Positions 1,343 through 10,616 of a stretch of DNA of 10,616 bases are shown piece after piece. Both the position numbers and the translations under genes were made by a program. Every line of letters starts with the position of its first letter. Within the stretch, counting starts at the first letter, position 1. The stretch lies in contig LKNC01000075.1 in the NCBI GenBank assembly GCA_001564255.1, positions 1-10,616 on the forward strand. Direction: 5' to 3'. The stretch is from Natrialbaceae archaeon Tc-Br11_E2g1. Lineage in GTDB: Archaea > Halobacteriota > Halobacteria > Halobacteriales > Natrialbaceae. The notes below the pieces were generated by a model that worked only from the letters and a program-made list of their open reading frames with translations, did no database searches and was not told the origin of the DNA.

Positions 1343-3004
1343 ATGTCTGATGAAAGCGTGAAGCGACGAGACGTGATGAAAGGTGTAGCGACGGTTGCCG
1401 CCGTCGCTCCGGTCGCGACGGCCGGTTGTCTCGGCGACGACGACACTGGAGTCGATGGCGAACCGGTCGAGGAGATCGAACTGATCGTCACCACGGCGGA
1501 TTACGATCCGGTCCGTTACGAGTTCGGTCAGCTGATCGCCGACAACTGGCGCGAGCTCGGGTTCGACGTCGACGTCAACCCGACGGCGTGGAACACGATC
1601 GTCGACACGGCGATGGATCAACAGGACTTCGACGCGTTTACGCTCAACTGGGGCGGCCGTGCCGAGCGGATCGACCCGGACATCTTCTGTTACGATCTCC
1701 ACCACTCCTCCCAGACCGAACTCGGCGCACGCAATCAGGTCAACTTCGAAAACGAGGAGTACGACGAGGCCGCGGAAGCTCAGCGTCGCCTCTACGACGA
1801 CGAGGAACGCCGCGAGCAGGTCTATCGCTGTCAGGAGATCTTCGCTGAAGAACAGCCCCGGACCCCGATCGCCAACCAGGAGCAGATCATGCCCTACCTC
1901 GCCGATGCTTTCGACGAGGTCGTCACGATGATGGGTGAGGGGCTGATGTCTTTCTGGACGGCGGTCGACTCCGAACCCGCCGGCGGCAACTCCGAACTTC
2001 GACTGGGGTATCCCTCCGAGGTCAACAATCTCAACCCTGCGGACGGCCAGGCGACCCACGACCAGCAGACGATGCGCCTGATCTACGACCGGCTGATGCG
2101 GATCAACACGGACGGCGTCGCCGAGGAGTGGCTTGCCGAATCCGTCGAAGAGGTAGACGACACGACGATCGAGGTGACGATTCGAGACGGCCAGTCCTGG
2201 CACGACGGCGAGGAGCTGACGGTCGAGGACGTGAAGTTCTCCTTCGAGTATCTCGGCGAACACTCGCCGGTGCTCGATGCCGCCACCGACCCGGTCGAGG
2301 ACATCGAGATCGTCGGCGACCGGACGCTCCGGTTCGATCTAGACGAGCCGTTCGCTCCCTTCCTCGCGGTCTCACTCGGCCAGGTGTTCATCATCCCGGA
2401 ACACATCTGGGCGGAGATTCCGGACGGGATGGACGACGTCAACTCGCCGCTCGACTTCGACAACCCCGAACCGGTCGGCAGCGGTCCGTTCCAGTTCGTC
2501 GACTGGCAACGCGACGAACAGATGGTACTCGAGGCGAACGAGGACCACTTCAACACGCCGAACGTCGAGACGATGATCAAGGTTCCCGGCGCGGACATGT
2601 CCACGCTCGTTCGACTCCTCGAAGACGAGGAGATCAACATGATCGGCTGGGTGCCCGGACCCGACACGGTCAACAGACTGGAAGAGGACGTCGATCACGT
2701 CGAGAACAGCTCGATCGAGGACCACGGCTGGTACCACATCAACTACCAGCTCGAGCGGCCGCCGTTCGACGACAAGGACGTCCGCCACGCGCTGGCTCAC
2801 GCGATCCCCAAACAGGACATCGTCGACGTAGTGATGGACGGGATGGGAACGGTCACCCACTCACAAATCGCCGAGGTCAACGAGTTCTGGCACAACCCGG
2901 ACGTAATGGAGTTCGGTGACGACATAGATCGAGCACGGGACGTACTCGAGGAAGCGGGCTACCAGTGGGACGACGACGGTCGGATACATTACCCAGCCGA
3001 ATAA
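1343..3004 (+). CDS. Peptide/nickel-type ABC transporter substrate-binding lipoprotein, circularly permuted
   Basis: Extracellular binding protein (553 residues) that delivers substrate to the downstream permeases. A twin-arginine signal (KRRDVMK, residues 7-13) and a lipobox (TAGC, Cys29) predict a membrane-anchored lipoprotein, followed by a short acidic linker. The domain order is unusual. Residues about 44-208 match the C-terminal part of family 5 solute-binding proteins: LIADNWRELGFDVDV, DFDAFTLNWGGRAERIDPD, then YDEAAEAQRRLYDDEERREQ and QEIFAEEQPRTPI. Residues about 217-553 match the N-terminal part: ELRLGYPSEVNNLNPAD, the family signature around TIRDGQSWHDGEELTVEDV (279-297), GSGPFQFVDW, and RARDVLEEAGY (530-540), where the canonical C-terminal part would normally begin. 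The total length is normal for one protein. ATG 1343 is preferred over the in-frame ATG at 1331 because of promoter spacing. It is the first gene of the operon; the permease follows after 24 bases. Confidence 0.93.
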   Translation: MSDESVKRRDVMKGVATVAAVAPVATAGCLGDDDTGVDGEPVEEIELIVTTADYDPVRYEFGQLIADNWRELGFDVDVNPTAWNTIVDTAMDQQDFDAFTLNWGGRAERIDPDIFCYDLHHSSQTELGARNQVNFENEEYDEAAEAQRRLYDDEERREQVYRCQEIFAEEQPRTPIANQEQIMPYLADAFDEVVTMMGEGLMSFWTAVDSEPAGGNSELRLGYPSEVNNLNPADGQATHDQQTMRLIYDRLMRINTDGVAEEWLAESVEEVDDTTIEVTIRDGQSWHDGEELTVEDVKFSFEYLGEHSPVLDAATDPVEDIEIVGDRTLRFDLDEPFAPFLAVSLGQVFIIPEHIWAEIPDGMDDVNSPLDFDNPEPVGSGPFQFVDWQRDEQMVLEANEDHFNTPNVETMIKVPGADMSTLVRLLEDEEINMIGWVPGPDTVNRLEEDVDHVENSSIEDHGWYHINYQLERPPFDDKDVRHALAHAIPKQDIVDVVMDGMGTVTHSQIAEVNEFWHNPDVMEFGDDIDRARDVLEEAGYQWDDDGRIHYPAE

Positions 3005-3028: not shown

Positions 3029-4009
3029 ATGGGACTCAGAGAGTACGTCGTTCGAAGGATATTCCAGCTGGTCATCACCTACTGGGCGTTTATCACCCTG
3101 TTGTTCGTGCTGTTTCGGGCAGCTCCGGGGGACCCGACGTCGATGTTCGTGATGGACGGTATGGACGAGGAGAGCCGTCAGGAGATCATCGCCGACCTCG
3201 GCCTCGACCAGCCGCTTTACCTCCAGTACGTCGATTACATGGGGCAGCTGTTGTCGGGCTCGTTCGGAGTCTCGTTCCGGTACAGAGAGCCCGTCTGGGA
3301 CGTTTTGGTTATCAAGTTCTGGAACACTATCTTCCTGATGGGCGCGGCCGTGATCTGTGCGTACGTTATCGGTGTACTCGCCGGAGCTCTGCTCGGCTGG
3401 TGGCGTGGCAAACGTGCCGAACGGGTCGGGATCGTCGCCGGGCTCATGGCCAGATCCTCCCCGGAGTTCTGGACCAGCATAATCGTGCTGTCGGTCTTTG
3501 CGTTCTGGCTCGGCTGGTTACCCTCCGGTGGGATGCGGTCGATCGGCGCGGAGATGGCGCCTTCTTTCTCCGCGCGATATCTCTCGACGGACTTCGTCTA
3601 CCACCTCGTGTTGCCCGTGATGGCGGCGACGATCTACTACATGGCGACGCCGCTTTTGTTGATGCGCAACACGATGCTCGACGTCCTCAAAGCCGACTTC
3701 ATCGAGATAAAGAAGGCAGAGGGGTTATCCGAACTGACGATCCTGTACAAACACGCCGCCAGAAACTCCATCCTGCCGGTCGTCACGATGGCCGCGATCG
3801 TGACCGGCACGGCGATGGGCGGCTCGCTGGTCATCGAAACCGTGTTCAACTGGCCCGGAATGGGACGTGAGATGGTCGAGGCGATAAACTACAACGACTA
3901 CCCCATGGCGATGGGTGCGTTCTTTCTCATGGGGTCGGTCGTGATCATCATGAACTTCGTCGCCGACCTGCTCTACGTCTACCTCGATCCGAGGGTGGAG
4001 TACAAATGA
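3029..4009 (+). CDS. dppB: Peptide ABC transporter permease, DppB/OppB type
   Basis: One of two membrane subunits that form the translocation channel of the importer (326 residues, normal length). It opens with the typical short cytoplasmic start and first helix (YVVRRIFQLVITYWAFITLLFVLFR, about residues 6-30), followed by the family motif APGDP (32-36) and a large external segment. Further hydrophobic segments lie near residues 100-124, 148-165, 190-212 and 294-318. The cytoplasmic coupling loop that contacts the ATPases is clear at 224-250 (FIEIKKAEGLSELTILYKHA and onward), followed by VFNWPGMGR (272-280). It starts 24 bases after the binding protein with no strong ribosome-binding site. 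Its stop codon overlaps the next gene by 4 bases, indicating translational coupling. The substrate class is inferred from family only. Confidence 0.96.
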   Translation: MGLREYVVRRIFQLVITYWAFITLLFVLFRAAPGDPTSMFVMDGMDEESRQEIIADLGLDQPLYLQYVDYMGQLLSGSFGVSFRYREPVWDVLVIKFWNTIFLMGAAVICAYVIGVLAGALLGWWRGKRAERVGIVAGLMARSSPEFWTSIIVLSVFAFWLGWLPSGGMRSIGAEMAPSFSARYLSTDFVYHLVLPVMAATIYYMATPLLLMRNTMLDVLKADFIEIKKAEGLSELTILYKHAARNSILPVVTMAAIVTGTAMGGSLVIETVFNWPGMGREMVEAINYNDYPMAMGAFFLMGSVVIIMNFVADLLYVYLDPRVEYK

Positions 4010-4944
4010 GCCGGGAGACCCAAGGCATCGACTCCATGGCGTCGGACGACGGCGCTACCGAGCGGATCCGGGCTCTCGCCGTCCGCACGTGGCGGACGTT
4101 CGTCGACGTGTTCGAGGGCGATCGGATGGGACAGATCGGGCTGGCGTTGCTCCTGATTTTCGCCCTGATGGGGATGTTCGGCCCCTGGATCACACCCCAC
4201 GACCCCACGGAGATAAATCGGGACGACGACGGCTCCGCGCTCCGGCTCGAGGCGCCGTCGACGGATCACTACTTCGGGACGACGAACATGGGCCGTGACG
4301 TCTTCTCCCAGGTCATCGTCGGCGCGCGCGCTTCGCTGATCGTCGGCACCATCGCGGCGCTGATCGCCGTCACGATCGGAACCAACATCGGGCTGATAAG
4401 TGCCTACTACGGCGGGTGGACGGAGGACGTGCTGATGCGGATCACCGACATCGCCTACGCCCTGCCGTTTCTCCCGTTCGTGATCGTACTGGTGTTCCTG
4501 CTCGGACCGAGTATCTGGAGTATCATCATCGTCATCGCGCTGTTGCTGTGGCGATCGACCGCCAGGGTCGTCCGTTCGCAGGTACTCTCACACAAAGAGC
4601 GGCCGTACGTCGAGTCGGCCAGGGCGGTCGGCGCCAGCGATCTGCGGATCATGTACCTCCACATCCTGCCCAACGTGTTGCCCCTGGCGTTTCTCTACGC
4701 GGCGTTCTCCGTCGCCTGGGCCGTGATCGCGGAGGCCAACGTCTCTTTTCTCGGCTTCGGGGATCCGACGATGATCTCCTGGGGCCAGATGTTGTTCGAG
4801 GCGTACACCGCCGATGCGATCCGGTTTGCCTGGTGGTGGGTCGTTCCCCCGGGAGTGTCGATTATGCTGTTGGTGATGGCTGCGTTCTTCATCGGCCGGA
4901 CCTTAGAGCGGGTGACGAACCCCGAACTACGACACGCTGAGTGA
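4006..4944 (+). CDS. dppC: Peptide ABC transporter permease, DppC/OppC type
   Basis: Second channel subunit (312 residues), partner of the preceding permease. A hydrophilic N-terminus of about 40 residues leads to a first helix (about 43-60), ending in GPWITPHDP. The family motif GTTNMGRDVFSQVIVGARAS lies at 91-110. Further helices lie near 110-134, 150-167, 169-183, 228-247 and 276-297. The ATPase coupling loop is at 201-224 (YVESARAVGASDLRIMYLHI and onward), followed by FLGFGDP (248-254). The ATG overlaps the previous stop codon, and a GGAG ribosome-binding site (3997-4000) lies 5 bases before it. An internal ATG at 4036 is possible but lacks such support. The first ATPase gene starts 3 bases after the stop. 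Confidence 0.96.
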   Translation: MSRETQGIDSMASDDGATERIRALAVRTWRTFVDVFEGDRMGQIGLALLLIFALMGMFGPWITPHDPTEINRDDDGSALRLEAPSTDHYFGTTNMGRDVFSQVIVGARASLIVGTIAALIAVTIGTNIGLISAYYGGWTEDVLMRITDIAYALPFLPFVIVLVFLLGPSIWSIIIVIALLLWRSTARVVRSQVLSHKERPYVESARAVGASDLRIMYLHILPNVLPLAFLYAAFSVAWAVIAEANVSFLGFGDPTMISWGQMLFEAYTADAIRFAWWWVVPPGVSIMLLVMAAFFIGRTLERVTNPELRHAE

Positions 4945-4947
4945 TAC

Positions 4948-5964
4948 ATGTCCAAACTAGAACTAGACGACCTCCGGACGTACTATCGGATGGAAGAGGG
5001 CTGGATAGAGGCCGCCGACGGTGTTTCGCTTTCGCTCGAGGCAAACGAGACGCTCGGTCTGGTCGGCGAGAGCGGCAGCGGAAAGTCGACGGTCGCGAAG
5101 TCGATCATCCGTCTGTTGCCGGACAACGGCGAGATCGTCGACGGCTCGATCCGGTTCGACGGCGAGGACATAACCGAGCTCAGCAAGCGGGAGCTGCGAA
5201 GACGGATCCGGTGGAAAGAGATCTCGATGATCCCCCAGTCGGCGATGAACGGGTTCGATCCGGTTTACACCGTCGGCGAACAGATCGTTCAGGCGATCCG
5301 CACCCACGAGTCCGACGTCTCGAAAGCCGAGGCCCGAGAACGGACGAAAGAGCTGTTCGACGATCTCGGCCTCGACGAGGAGCGCGTCGACGACTATCCC
5401 CACCAGTTCTCGGGGGGGATGGCCCAGCGGGCGATGATCGCACTCGCGCTCGCGGTCGACCCGTCGGTGATTCTGGCCGACGAGCCGACGACGGCGCTCG
5501 ACGTCGTCATCCAGGATCGAATCCTCGGGACGATAAAGGAGATGCAAGACGAGCTCGGGACGGCGATGGTCCTCATCACCCACGACATGTCCGTCGTCTC
5601 CGAGACCTGTGATACGATCGCGGTGATGTACGGTGGCCGCGTCGTCGAGCGTGCCGACGCCGAAACCATCATCAAACGTCCGAAACATCCGTACACGCTC
5701 GGGCTTCGGAACGCGTTTCCGGACATCACTGCCGACTCCCAGGAACTCGTCTCCATCCCCGGTTCGCCGCCGGATCTGCTCGAACCGGGGGAGGGGTGTC
5801 GGTTCGCTCCCCGGTGTCCGTTCGCCGAGGATCGCTGCTGGGAGGAGACGCCACAGCCCGAAACACACGGCGACGGTCACGTGGTAGAGTGTCACAGAGC
5901 CGACGAGGCGGAATACCTCCGGAAGGAGGCAAACCGTCCCGAAACGTGGAGGACCGATGACTGA
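4948..5964 (+). CDS. dppD: Peptide ABC transporter ATP-binding protein, DppD/OppD type
   Basis: Cytoplasmic ATPase subunit (338 residues) of the importer. All ATPase motifs are intact: Walker A GESGSGKST (40-48), Q-loop Gln97, signature FSGGMAQR (154-161), Walker B VILADEPTTALD (174-185) and switch His212. The oligopeptide-family C-terminal extension is present (HPYTLGLRNAFPD, then IPGSPPDL). It carries four cysteines at 284, 290, 297 and 315 (C-x5-C-x6-C-x17-C), the arrangement linked to a 4Fe-4S cluster in characterised Opp/Dpp ATPases. It follows the dppC-type gene by 3 bases and overlaps the next ATPase by 8 bases. It would pair with that protein as an asymmetric heterodimer. Confidence 0.97.
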   Translation: MSKLELDDLRTYYRMEEGWIEAADGVSLSLEANETLGLVGESGSGKSTVAKSIIRLLPDNGEIVDGSIRFDGEDITELSKRELRRRIRWKEISMIPQSAMNGFDPVYTVGEQIVQAIRTHESDVSKAEARERTKELFDDLGLDEERVDDYPHQFSGGMAQRAMIALALAVDPSVILADEPTTALDVVIQDRILGTIKEMQDELGTAMVLITHDMSVVSETCDTIAVMYGGRVVERADAETIIKRPKHPYTLGLRNAFPDITADSQELVSIPGSPPDLLEPGEGCRFAPRCPFAEDRCWEETPQPETHGDGHVVECHRADEAEYLRKEANRPETWRTDD

Positions 5965-6958
5965 GCCGAAACTCGAACTCGACGGGGTCGAGAAACACTT
6001 TCCCGTCGACCGGGGGCTCGTCGCCCGGCTGTTGAACCGAGGGGATCGCGATTTCGTCCACGCTGCCGACGGCGTCTCCTTCTCCATCGAGGAGGGGGAG
6101 GTGTTCGGACTCGCGGGCGAGAGCGGCTGTGGGAAGACGACCATCGGGAAGACGGCTATCAGGCTCCACGATCCGACGTCGGGTCGGATCAGGTTCGACG
6201 GCGAGGACATCACCGAACTCGACGGTACCGAACTGATGAAGTTCCGTCGCGAGGCCCAGGTCATCCACCAGGACCCCTACCAGTCGATCAACCCCCGGTG
6301 GAAAGTCTCCCGGTGGGTCAGGGAGCCACTCGCCATCCACGACATCGGCACGCGAGACGAGCGAACCGACAGGGTCCACGAGACGCTCGAACGCGTCGGC
6401 CTACGCCCGGCATCGGCGTTCGCCGACGAGTACGCTTCCGAGCTCTCCGGCGGCGAGCGCCAGCGTCTCGGCATCGCCCGGGCGCTCGTCTTGGATCCGT
6501 CGTTTCTGCTCGCCGACGAACCTGCGAGCATGCTCGACGTCAGCATCCGGGCTAGCATCCTCGATCTCTTCCGGGAGCTCCAGCGGGATTTCGGCCTCAC
6601 GGGGCTGTACATCAGCCACGACCTGTCGTTGCTAAAACACATGTGCGACCGGATCGGCGTGATGTACTCCGGAAAGCTCGTCGAGGTCGGAACGGCAGAG
6701 CAGATCATCCGCGATCCGAAACACCCGTACACGCAGGCGCTGGTCGGTTCGATGCCGATCATCGACCCCGACGTCGATCGGGAGCCGGTTACGTTGAGCG
6801 GCAATGTGCCTGACCTCGTCGACGTGCCGGACCACTGCCGCTTCTACAACCGCTGTCCGGAGGCGTCCGAGGAGTGCACCTACGAGGAACCGCCGCTGTA
6901 CGAGGTCGGCGACGGACAACGGGCACGGTGTATCCTTCACGAACCGGAGGACCGATGA
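5957..6958 (+). CDS. dppF: Peptide ABC transporter ATP-binding protein, DppF/OppF type
   Basis: Second ATPase subunit (333 residues). Walker A is GESGCGKTT (54-62), Q-loop Gln105, signature LSGGERQR (163-170), Walker B FLLADEPASMLD (183-194) and switch His221. The segment DPYQSINPRW after the Q-loop is typical of the F subunit. The C-terminal extension has HPYTQALVGSMP and cysteines at 294, 300, 307 and 325, with the same spacing as the D subunit. The ATG lies within the end of the previous gene, 8 bases overlapping, behind a GGAGG at 5948-5952. The stop codon overlaps an ATG at 6955 that opens a 31-codon ORF. The next recognisable enzyme gene begins 88 bases downstream. Confidence 0.97.
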   Translation: MTEPKLELDGVEKHFPVDRGLVARLLNRGDRDFVHAADGVSFSIEEGEVFGLAGESGCGKTTIGKTAIRLHDPTSGRIRFDGEDITELDGTELMKFRREAQVIHQDPYQSINPRWKVSRWVREPLAIHDIGTRDERTDRVHETLERVGLRPASAFADEYASELSGGERQRLGIARALVLDPSFLLADEPASMLDVSIRASILDLFRELQRDFGLTGLYISHDLSLLKHMCDRIGVMYSGKLVEVGTAEQIIRDPKHPYTQALVGSMPIIDPDVDREPVTLSGNVPDLVDVPDHCRFYNRCPEASEECTYEEPPLYEVGDGQRARCILHEPEDR

Positions 6959-7039: not shown

Positions 7040-7046
7040 AAGAGCG

Positions 7047-7808
7047 GTGACCGAACCGCGGTCGGTGTATCTCGAACGGCTGAGCTGGAAGGAGATTCGG
7101 GGAGCGATCGACGCTGGTTTCGACACCGTTCTGGTGCCCGGAGGGTCGGTCGAACAGCACGGCCCGCACCTCGGGATACTCAAAGACGCCGCCTGGGCCG
7201 AGGCGATCGGCGCCGAGGTCGCCCACGAGCTCGGTGAGACACTCGTCGCGCCGGTGATCAGGCCGGGAACGTCCGACCACCACATGGGGTTTGCAGGCAC
7301 GATCAGCTACCGACCGGAGACGCTGATGGCCGTCGTCGAGGATTACTGTCACAGCCTCGCGAGCCACGGGTTCGATACGATCGTCCTGTTCTCGATGCAC
7401 GGTGGAAACTTCCCCGCGATGAACGCCGTCCTCCCGCGGATCGCCACGGAGGTCGACGCGAAGGTCGTCACGCTACTCGACAGGGAGCTACTGATCGACC
7501 CCCTCCTGGAGAGCCTCGACGCGTTCGGCGTGCCACGGGAGGCCAGAGGCCACGGTGGCGCGGCCGTCACCGCGTCGATGTTACACCTCCGTCCGGAGCT
7601 CGTCCTCGAGGAGGAGTGCCGGCCGGGATACCGGGGTGAGGTTCCGACTTCGACGCTTACCACCCGCGGGCTCGACGCCGTCAGCGAGATGGGCCATATG
7701 GGAGATCCGACACGCGCGACCGAGGAGCTCGGCCGCGAGGTCACGGGGCGGTTGGTCGACGCGTTCGTCGATCGAATACAAACGGAACGAGGGAACTGTC
7801 ATGAGTGA
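7047..7808 (+). CDS. Creatininase-family amidohydrolase
   Basis: Predicted cytoplasmic metal-dependent hydrolase of cyclic or linear amide bonds (253 residues, normal for the family). The family opening LVPGGSVEQHGPHL supplies the expected metal ligands Glu36 and His38. Asp47 lies in LKDAAWAEAIG, and His118 in MHGGN. The C-terminal motif MGHMGDPTRATEELGR (215-230) is typical. One feature is odd: where many relatives have HAGE-x-ETS, this protein reads HGGAAVTAS (169-177), so neither glutamate is present. That could mean altered metal binding or another substrate class. Family members include creatininase, FAPy deformylase and the peptidase MftE, and the sequence does not decide among these. 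The stop overlaps the M20 gene by 8 bases. Confidence 0.92.
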   Translation: MTEPRSVYLERLSWKEIRGAIDAGFDTVLVPGGSVEQHGPHLGILKDAAWAEAIGAEVAHELGETLVAPVIRPGTSDHHMGFAGTISYRPETLMAVVEDYCHSLASHGFDTIVLFSMHGGNFPAMNAVLPRIATEVDAKVVTLLDRELLIDPLLESLDAFGVPREARGHGGAAVTASMLHLRPELVLEEECRPGYRGEVPTSTLTTRGLDAVSEMGHMGDPTRATEELGREVTGRLVDAFVDRIQTERGNCHE

Positions 7809-9150
7809 TACTATAGAGTACATACAGGAGAACCGAGACGCGTACCTAGAGGAGCTGTTCGAGCTGCTGGCCGTGCCGAGTGTGAGTACGACCGGCGATC
7901 GCCTCGACGGCTGTGCGAAGCTCGTCGCCGACGTCTGCCGACGACACGGCCTCGAAGCGACCCTCGTCGAGACCGTCGGGAACCCGATCGTCTACGCCGA
8001 GCGGATCGTAGACGAGTCGAAGCCGACCGTGGTGTTCTACGGCCACTACGACGTCCAGCCGCCCGGCGCCGAGGAGCTGTGGGACTCCCCGCCGTTCGAT
8101 CCGACGATCCGGGACGGGTCGATCTACGCCCGTGGTAGCGGTGACAACAAAGGGCAGTTTCTCACGCACGTGTTCGCTACCGGGGCGGTCCTCGAAACGG
8201 AGGGTGAGCCATCGGTCAACGTCAAGCTACTGATCGAGGGCGAGGAGGAAAGCGGCAGCACGGGGTTGATCGAGTACCTCGAGGACGACCCGTCGCTCGT
8301 TGCCGACGCCGACCTCGTGTACGTGGCCGACGGTCCGGCCCACCAGTCGGGTCGGCCGACCCTCATCTACGGCAATCGCGGCATCCTCTCGGTCGAGATC
8401 CGCCTCCGAGAGGCGAACACCGACCTCCACTCCGGGAACTTCGGTGGGCCGATCCCGAACGCGGCGTGGTCGATGGTCGAGTTGCTCGGAACGATGCGGG
8501 ATTCGGCCGGCGGGATCGCCATAGAGGGCTTTCACGAGGACGTCGACATCCCCAAACGGGCCCGAGAGATGGTGGCGAAGATCCCGGTCGACGCCGCGGG
8601 ACTGAAAACGGAACTCGACCTGGCTGAGCTGCGCGTCGATCCGGACCGCTACTACGAGTCCTTGCTGCTCGAGCCGACGCTGACGATAAACGGCCTCGAG
8701 AGCGGTTACACCGGCCGTGGGAAGAAAACGATCGTTCCACACGAGGCGACCGCGAAACTCGACATGCGGCTCGTTCCCGATCAGAGCCCCGAGACCGTCT
8801 TCGAACGCGTCCGGGAACACGTGCTCGCGCACAGAGCCGACGCCGACGTCGAGATACACGGCACCTTCCCACCGATGAGCACGTCCCTCGACACTCCCTT
8901 CGCGGAGACGGTGTACGGTGCACTCTCCGACGTGTGGTCCGCCGAACCGGTAGAGCTGCCGCTGCTCGGCGGAAGCCTTCCGGCCGCCTATCTCCAGCGG
9001 GAACTCGGGACGCCGGTGCTCGTCGTCCCCTACGCGAACCCCGACCAGGGAAACCACTCCCCGAACGAACACCTCGATGTCGACTGGTTCGAGAACGGTA
9101 TTGGGACGACGGCGATGGTACTGAAACGGCTCGGTCGAGTCGATCGATGA
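7801..9150 (+). CDS. M20 family metallopeptidase (dipeptidase/carnosinase-like)
   Basis: Cytoplasmic zinc aminoacyl- or dipeptidase-type hydrolase (449 residues). The M20 catalytic set is visible: His82 and Asp84 in GHYDVQPP, the bridging Asp115 in RGSGDNKGQ, Glu149 and Glu150 in EGEEESGS, Asp177 in VADG, and His419 in NHSPNE. His210 in DLHSG belongs to the dimerisation (lid) domain inserted between the two catalytic halves. The sequence most resembles the carnosinase/DUG1-like branch. The ATG at 7801 is 6 bases after a GAGGGA ribosome-binding site (7789-7794) and lies inside the end of the previous gene, so translation is coupled. It is the last gene of the importer operon and probably cleaves the imported compound or a product of the amidohydrolase. 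Confidence 0.95.
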   Translation: MSDTIEYIQENRDAYLEELFELLAVPSVSTTGDRLDGCAKLVADVCRRHGLEATLVETVGNPIVYAERIVDESKPTVVFYGHYDVQPPGAEELWDSPPFDPTIRDGSIYARGSGDNKGQFLTHVFATGAVLETEGEPSVNVKLLIEGEEESGSTGLIEYLEDDPSLVADADLVYVADGPAHQSGRPTLIYGNRGILSVEIRLREANTDLHSGNFGGPIPNAAWSMVELLGTMRDSAGGIAIEGFHEDVDIPKRAREMVAKIPVDAAGLKTELDLAELRVDPDRYYESLLLEPTLTINGLESGYTGRGKKTIVPHEATAKLDMRLVPDQSPETVFERVREHVLAHRADADVEIHGTFPPMSTSLDTPFAETVYGALSDVWSAEPVELPLLGGSLPAAYLQRELGTPVLVVPYANPDQGNHSPNEHLDVDWFENGIGTTAMVLKRLGRVDR

Positions 9151-10498: not shown

Positions 10499-10510
10499 AG
10501 AGGGGTCGGC

Positions 10511-10616
10511 GACCGACGCGATACGGTGATCGGTGACCGACGCGATACGGTGATCGGTGACCGACGCGATACGGTGATCGGTGACCGACGCGATACGGTG
10601 ATCGGTGACCGACGCG
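10511..10616. repeat. Perfect 24-bp tandem repeat array, running off the window
   Basis: Four identical 24-bp units lie at 10511-10534, 10535-10558, 10559-10582 and 10583-10606, followed by the first 10 bases of a fifth. Each unit contains GACCGACGCGATACGG followed by TGATCGGT. Across each junction the sequence TCGGTGACCGA forms an 11-base palindrome with a central G. Bases 10503-10510 look like the end of a degenerate earlier unit. There are no unique spacers, so this is not a CRISPR array. The true copy number cannot be seen. Confidence 0.95.

Follow-up and report, generated by a model that had tools for sequence, protein, structure and literature searches.

The window in this analysis is the whole stretch of DNA that we examined, contig LKNC01000075.1 of Natrialbaceae archaeon Tc-Br11_E2g1 (10,616 nucleotides, forward strand; assembly GCA_001564255.1), one contig of a genome that is 68% complete in 210 contigs. 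It carries a gene for a solute-binding protein (SBP) of family 5 at 1343-3004, directly followed by an intact DppBCDF operon with permeases of the OppB/C type and ATPases of the D/F type (Table 1). On the evidence of its alignments, this open reading frame (ORF) is a true circular permutant of an Opp/Dpp-type binding protein: what forms the C-terminal part in ordinary members of the family (segment A) precedes what forms their N-terminal part (segment B). We regard it as highly probable that the product is a working, lipid-anchored SBP of a Dpp/Opp-type importer, its chain circularly permuted at a tolerant loop.

Table 1 Features of the window, and permuted SBP genes at other loci whose DppC carries an insert (aa, amino acids; Tat, twin-arginine translocation).
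Feature	Position	Strand	Basis
Circularly permuted family 5 SBP gene, 553 aa	1343..3004	+	Profile and structure-sequence matches
Tat-type signal peptide (KRR), lipobox TAGC, Cys29	1343..1429	+	Translation, by eye
Segment A, residues 44-208, C-terminal part of ordinary family 5 proteins	1472..1966	+	PF00496, DppA and Opp4A matches
Fusion linker, about residues 209-216, old C-terminus to old mature N-terminus	1967..1990	+	Alignments; variable columns
Segment B, residues 217-553, N-terminal part of ordinary family 5 proteins	1991..3001	+	PF00496 and AppA matches
DppB/OppB-type permease (BPD_transp_1)	3029..4009	+	Pfam
DppC/OppC-type permease (OppC_N, BPD_transp_1)	4006..4944	+	Pfam
DppD-type ATPase (ABC_tran, oligo_HPY)	4948..5964	+	Pfam
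DppF-type ATPase (ABC_tran, oligo_HPY)	5957..6958	+	Pfam
Creatininase-family amidohydrolase (PF02633)	7044..7808	+	Pfam
M20 family peptidase/hydrolase	7795..9150	+	Pfam
Permuted SBP, DppC-insert locus	L015:8485-10173		
Permuted SBP, DppC-insert locus	L016:3617-5350		
Permuted SBP, DppC-insert locus	L017:8575-10443		
Permuted SBP, DppC-insert locus	L032:8566-10332		

Evidence for the permuted order

The window protein matched PF00496 in two stretches with 230.1 bits (cut-off 32.4), which places it in the family by profile, and this was its sole Pfam match up to E 1. We take PF00496 to represent the cluster C class of binding proteins. The profile did not run in the normal N-to-C order; its end came first and its start second. 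Scanned alone, residues 41-209 gave 37.3 bits (cut-off 32.4) against PF00496 290-363, matched at residues 47-122; residues 215-553 gave 193 bits against PF00496 4-285, matched at residues 262-547. Pfam models just the central part of the family, and the remainder was covered by NCBIfam and solved structures. Positions 413-533 of NCBIfam Opp4A fell in the first half of the protein and positions 50-387 in the second. Query residues 220-542 aligned with chain 28-346 of B. subtilis AppA (1xoc) and residues 46-176 with chain 361-486, while E. coli DppA (1dpp) paired its chain 23-341 with residues 237-541 and its chain 356-495 with residues 53-196. The chain is opened only in the loop between DppA 341 and 356 (E. 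coli numbering), no segment is duplicated, and two complementary segments are swapped at full length, as in circular permutation generally. The preliminary description had claimed a true permutation and had suggested aligning the two segments separately to the SBP_bac_5 profile and to DppA; both alignments bore the claim out. The AlphaFold model is confident (predicted local distance difference test score (pLDDT) 92, predicted template modelling score (pTM) 0.88) and suggests one closed fold, and the best fold match for residues 213-553 was AppA (1xoc).

A short linker separates the Tat lipobox from segment A in the translation, and segment B terminates in the interrupted loop AGYQWDDDGRIHYPAE. 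An alternative in-frame start, an ATG at 1331, lies 12 bases upstream of 1343. The Pfam TAT_signal model had no match in the window protein and matched 9 of the 69 members of the permuted-clade alignment; the NCBIfam TAT model matched the window protein below cut-off only.

With the window being a contig of so fragmented a genome, the order could be an artefact of assembly or gene calling, or the gene a fusion or pseudogene of two truncated copies. We give this almost no credence: the same order stands in database records whose titles give a complete chromosome or genome (L017, L048, L050, L080) and on many independent contigs, the halves are complementary and make up one length, columns are conserved across the 69 members, and the operon is intact. 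The earlier judgement that this is neither a fusion nor a broken gene holds on these grounds, and assembly error, which it had named as a possible refutation, is not the cause.

Distribution and number of origins

Chance does not explain the order: segment A preceded segment B in 120 of the 121 proteins P0001-P0121, a set made of the query and the best 120 of 512 matches above threshold that includes P0002, the query's own 99% identical database copy. Only P0080 departs from this, being a 309-aa fragment that lacks segment A. The core claim of the preliminary description, with its expectation that relatives might already lie in databases, was correct and understated. Among the best 80 of 524 loci in a genome scan, 47 were permuted and 28 normal, and five had only one half recognisable. 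The same order, which the preliminary description had suggested seeking in haloarchaeal genomes, was found there and also in several phyla beyond them; permuted loci came from haloarchaea, Thermoproteota, Bacillota, Pseudomonadota, Thermodesulfobacteriota, Atribacterota and Deinococcota (at least seven phyla). Matches spanning the permuted profile (from position 51 or lower to 520 or higher) occurred in at least 34 of 59 genomes among the matches listed (counted by hand). The source genome itself holds three permuted genes (C64, C66 and C77), the window's own included, of which C66 has another origin than the window gene, together with C47, in normal order with a one-piece PF00496 match, and C113, a contig-end fragment beginning in normal order. 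Side-by-side pairs of permuted SBP genes, about 47-54% identical over the matched parts, were seen in haloarchaea (L048, L061, L062, L063).

Other break points would be under-sampled in the homology searches because these were seeded with permuted proteins; only a scan with the complete PF00496 profile, made on 15 haloarchaeal genomes (source genome included), is free of that bias. It returned 126 matches. All 20 genes matched in two pieces were permuted, with segment B ending at profile 259-302 (by hand), giving at least 20 permuted places of about 106 for family 5 in these genomes, a lower bound since the scan misses weak first halves. At this frequency, lobe assignments, anchor predictions and template models call for care. 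Profile annotation hides the permutation, with both orders filed under PF00496 in Pfam, and the source names seen among the proteins listed were ordinary, e.g. 'ABC transporter substrate-binding protein' (ABC, ATP-binding cassette).

For the trees, both halves of every protein were brought into one register. The first tree left out ORFs <480 aa, ORFs without a recognisable half and repeats of source-genome loci. It placed 65 permuted proteins, the window's included, on one branch (94 in the Shimodaira-Hasegawa-like approximate likelihood ratio test, SH-aLRT), and L003 (source-genome C66), L051 (a Symbiobacterium metagenome-assembled genome, MAG) and L056 (a Thermoprotei MAG) among normal proteins. 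Of the C66 type, the best 30 loci from 194 genomes of the class comprised 21 permuted and 9 normal, and the best 120 of 340 protein matches 70 permuted and 50 normal. The Bacillota-type tree, without L170, L171 and the window-clade gene of L015, held 17 permuted rows, among them L157 with an internal stop and L162 with a masked run, and 14 normal rows, three of these from other phyla. Thirty Thermoproteota loci from 250 genomes included six permuted ones (L182-L186 and L193), that of the query of this search among them.

A combined tree of 73 chosen representatives (36 permuted) needs at least eight order changes, six of them forced by its starred branches. The window's clade (20 rows) formed one branch (91/97), C66-type and Bacillota-type permuted genes were nested among normal-order relatives, and the Thermoproteota permuted genes also sat among normal relatives at lower support (89/92 and 97/92). 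Pfam scans of the A-halves gave 37.9 bits for L051 (permuted) and 36.1 for L169 (normal), both above the cut-off of 32.4. L056 (27.6 bits) and L127 (15.3 bits) matched that end of the profile too, with scores under the cut-off. For L146 the A-half had no Pfam match, and the order of this gene rests on comparison with P0124.

One ancient permutation followed by horizontal transfer might account for all permuted proteins of family 5. Within the window's clade, one branch across several phyla in both trees, one old event plus transfer is indeed the best reading. As an account of the whole family it is highly improbable under the model used: tests run after the trees had been seen rejected one clade of all 36 permuted representatives (p 3e-43, 73 rows) and a single origin within the C66-type haloarchaeal family (p 4.6e-6; 21 permuted, 30 rows), and the other permuted types sit among normal-order relatives as described above. 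The trees indicate that permutation arose more than once in family 5.

Break loop, exchange of order and membrane anchor

In all families aligned, the break falls after the 'AGY'-type helix and before the strand that follows, in a loop that varies in length among normal-order proteins. As a rule, natural circular permutations are deduced by comparing distant proteins. Here one and the same operon is found with either order: in G105 (normal) and G087 (permuted) the same gene families follow one another over five genes upstream and five downstream of the SBP. Their permeases are 86% (DppB) and 90% (DppC) identical, their ATPases 86% and 71%, the gene just upstream 86%, and more distant genes 51-59%. 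The binding proteins are 72-73% identical per half with the halves swapped, have nearly the same signal peptide with the Cys kept (both with a lipobox), and are sisters by each half alone (A 97/92, B 100/100). It follows from the sister binding proteins, shared operon and swapped halves that a change of order took place at this locus. Permeases that are nearly the same lie next to either order, and both orders presumably work, given their conservation. The closest permuted/normal pair found was P0166/P0221 (metagenome proteins, 87.9% identical over 594 columns); a 'quick' tree of their subgroup put normal genes, with new junctions, inside the permuted group.

As a mechanism, we propose that a short linker now joins the former N- and C-termini and that the chain was opened instead in a single loop, after the helix that ends in 'AGY' and before the strand that follows, presumably with fold, cleft and closing movement intact. 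The protein would then capture its ligand, dock on the DppBC permeases encoded next door and hand the ligand over. A loop of variable length and joinable old termini would make such a rearrangement tolerable, and tolerance would explain both its recurrence at the same place and nearly identical permeases beside either order. We lean, by a modest degree, towards regarding family 5 as a case of repeated, possibly reversible permutation at one fixed loop, in which the order would have changed at least four times across archaea and bacteria, and more than once among one family of haloarchaea, with the gene keeping its place in the operon beside little-changed permeases and with one subgroup looking as if flipped back.

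Several results weigh against these readings. VIA-align matched about residues 213-553 only and Foldseek matches covered part of the chain only; both are sequential aligners, which accounts for the partial matches, and residues 1-210 were scarcely compared with known folds. No permuted member was among the PDB matches listed (best 60 of 109), the best stretch starting at profile position 214 or later. A single origin in the Bacillota family was not rejected (p 0.25; 17 permuted, 31 rows). The importer gene set, judged by similarity to the window's genes, was incomplete nearby in 6 of 16 permuted loci, in some of which the stretch stops at a contig end. The ligand-binding charge pair of DppA is not kept in the alignment, R383 corresponding to A52 and D436 to R106 in the window protein; DppA was represented by its variant chain 8z1z_F, of which the aligned part begins with the residue after R383, so that the A52 pairing is extrapolated. 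Finally, A-only and B-only trees disagree in the P0166/P0221 subgroup.

This last conflict (P0166, P0175 and P0191 against P0211, P0214, P0218, P0221 and P0223) points to recombination between genes of different order and makes the number of flips uncertain. P0221 and P0223 have an identical A-half in the 178 columns used, and their B-halves differ. Recombination is likely in this subgroup, and a true reversal of order is possible. Whether the order changes of the C66-type haloarchaeal genes as a whole spread mainly by recombination of normal and permuted copies, instead of by repeated permutation, is doubtful. The subgroup and the tandem SBP pairs speak for it, but exchange of a single half does not by itself swap the order of halves, and each half alone rejects one permuted clade in a set of 21 chosen rows (B-half, p 2e-5; A-half, p 0.006). 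The Bacillota and Thermoproteota families are too distant for recombination to serve as an explanation.

Tandem duplication followed by loss of the outer halves had been suggested as the route, and this found no support. Around 103 permuted entries (95 distinct genes), the 201 flanks of up to 1500 bases contained no duplication remnants; flank matches in 12 entries were whole neighbouring SBP genes (8) or leader-like or weak matches of 24-41% identity (4). A search admitting proteins up to 1.75 times 643 aa listed no long intermediate among the best 120 of 340 matches (longest 684 aa). Two B-only matches, L170 and L171, were considered as gene fission intermediates and rejected, their genes being cut by the ends of the sequence stretch. 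Direct evidence for duplication or for a fission-fusion route was absent from the flanks, long matches and B-only matches examined.

By a lipobox pattern of our own, 14/18 haloarchaeal, 5/7 Bacillota and 1/18 Pseudomonadota permuted rows of the multi-phylum set were positive, as were all C66-type loci (21/21 permuted, 9/9 normal) and, in the Bacillota family, 9/17 permuted and 9/14 normal rows. The six Thermoproteota permutants (L182-L186, L193) have by eye a C-terminal membrane segment after segment B, and L032, also a Thermoproteota permutant, has neither anchor by the patterns used. In L193 (1072-3246) an extra, stalk-like stretch, possibly immunoglobulin-like by eye, lies between segment B and the membrane segment.

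Permutation may be adaptive in shifting the membrane anchor to the opposite lobe, an idea put forward for the treponemal binding protein TpMglB-2 (discussed below). For the window protein, the move that the preliminary description foresaw follows from its anatomy: by the usual lobe limits of DppA, the break loop and new termini would lie in the C-lobe, and the lipid anchor would now start from the lobe that carries no chain end in ordinary members. The frequent lipoboxes of haloarchaeal, Bacillota and C66-type permutants, the Thermoproteota membrane segment as an anchor at a new terminus, and the use of the same loop by independent events agree with a role in anchoring. As a general reason the anchor shift is unlikely, because 17/18 Pseudomonadota and 8/17 Bacillota-family permutants have no lipobox by our pattern, and such members speak against anchoring as the driver; G105 and G087, moreover, keep permeases 86-90% identical with either order and a lipobox in both proteins. 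In our view, near-neutral tolerance of a single loop is a better account than selection for the anchor.

Neighbouring genes and comparison with known systems

The creatininase-family gene is possibly co-transcribed with the importer, judging by spacing, and the M20 gene likewise, judging by overlap. Both are kept behind the operon in L226 and L227, the two closest relatives examined, and a creatininase-like gene (28% identity) also lies behind the operon in L018. Their presence suggests, as a lead only, that the ligand of the window importer may be other than a plain dipeptide. E. coli DppA holds the dipeptide with R383 and D436 (PMC12136057), and the label 'peptide importer' in the preliminary description is unproven given their replacement in the alignment. 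The position of A52 is A in 32/69 members of the permuted-clade alignment and that of R106 is R in 42/69.

One branch of the permuted clade has a DppC insert of roughly 250 residues or more after the first membrane segment. The insert of L015 matched an HVO_0234-like beta propeller just above cut-off, that of L017 was beta-propeller-like at a weak score below cut-off, that of L016 looked similar by eye, and that of L032 had no Pfam match. The window DppC (312 aa) is without the insert. At ~10500-10616 the window ends in tandem 24-bp repeats, which in a minus frame translate to repeated ASVTDHRI; the assembly may have stopped there.

No report of natural permutation in family 5 was found among the open-licence PMC papers listed. 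Natural circular permutation in binding proteins is already known from TpMglB-2 (Tp0684) of Treponema pallidum, for which 'Type Ic / Cluster Bc' was proposed in 2016 (PMC4990184). According to that paper, TpMglB-2 is, like the window protein, a natural permutant, an ABC-transporter binding protein and lipid-tethered; it has relatives in treponemes and Gram-positives, and its authors raised anchoring as a possible reason. TpMglB-2 has a cluster B (sugar) fold with permuted N-lobe strands, whereas the window protein, with its PF00496 match only, falls outside the cluster B (Type I) sugar-binding class and is a family 5 (cluster C) protein with a different break. Unlike TpMglB-2, the family 5 permutants occur in archaea and bacteria and are recurrent.

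Peptide SBPs are termed cluster C in PMC12136057, and E. coli DppA/DppABCDF belongs to the same family and operon type as the window system (PMC12136057; PDB 1dpp, 8z1z). There the two-lobed DppA docks on DppB/DppC, and a scoop motif of DppB contacts both DppA lobes. DppA differs from the window protein in its normal order and in having R383/D436 in place of A52/R106; AppA (1xoc), which matches the window protein in two pieces, and other solved family 5 proteins also have the normal segment order. Natural permutation within one family is likewise described for DNA methyltransferases and others, with duplication or fission-fusion proposed and, for the methyltransferases, mention of documented intermediates (PMC3320104), whereas none were seen for family 5. 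What family 5 offers is permuted and normal proteins up to 88% identical. With both orders in the same operon at 72-73% identity and up to 88% in metagenome proteins, the origin and cost of permutation become directly testable, and, if our reading is right, pairs from 73% (syntenic) to 88% identity would be ready-made tests of chain order in folding, export, anchoring and transport.
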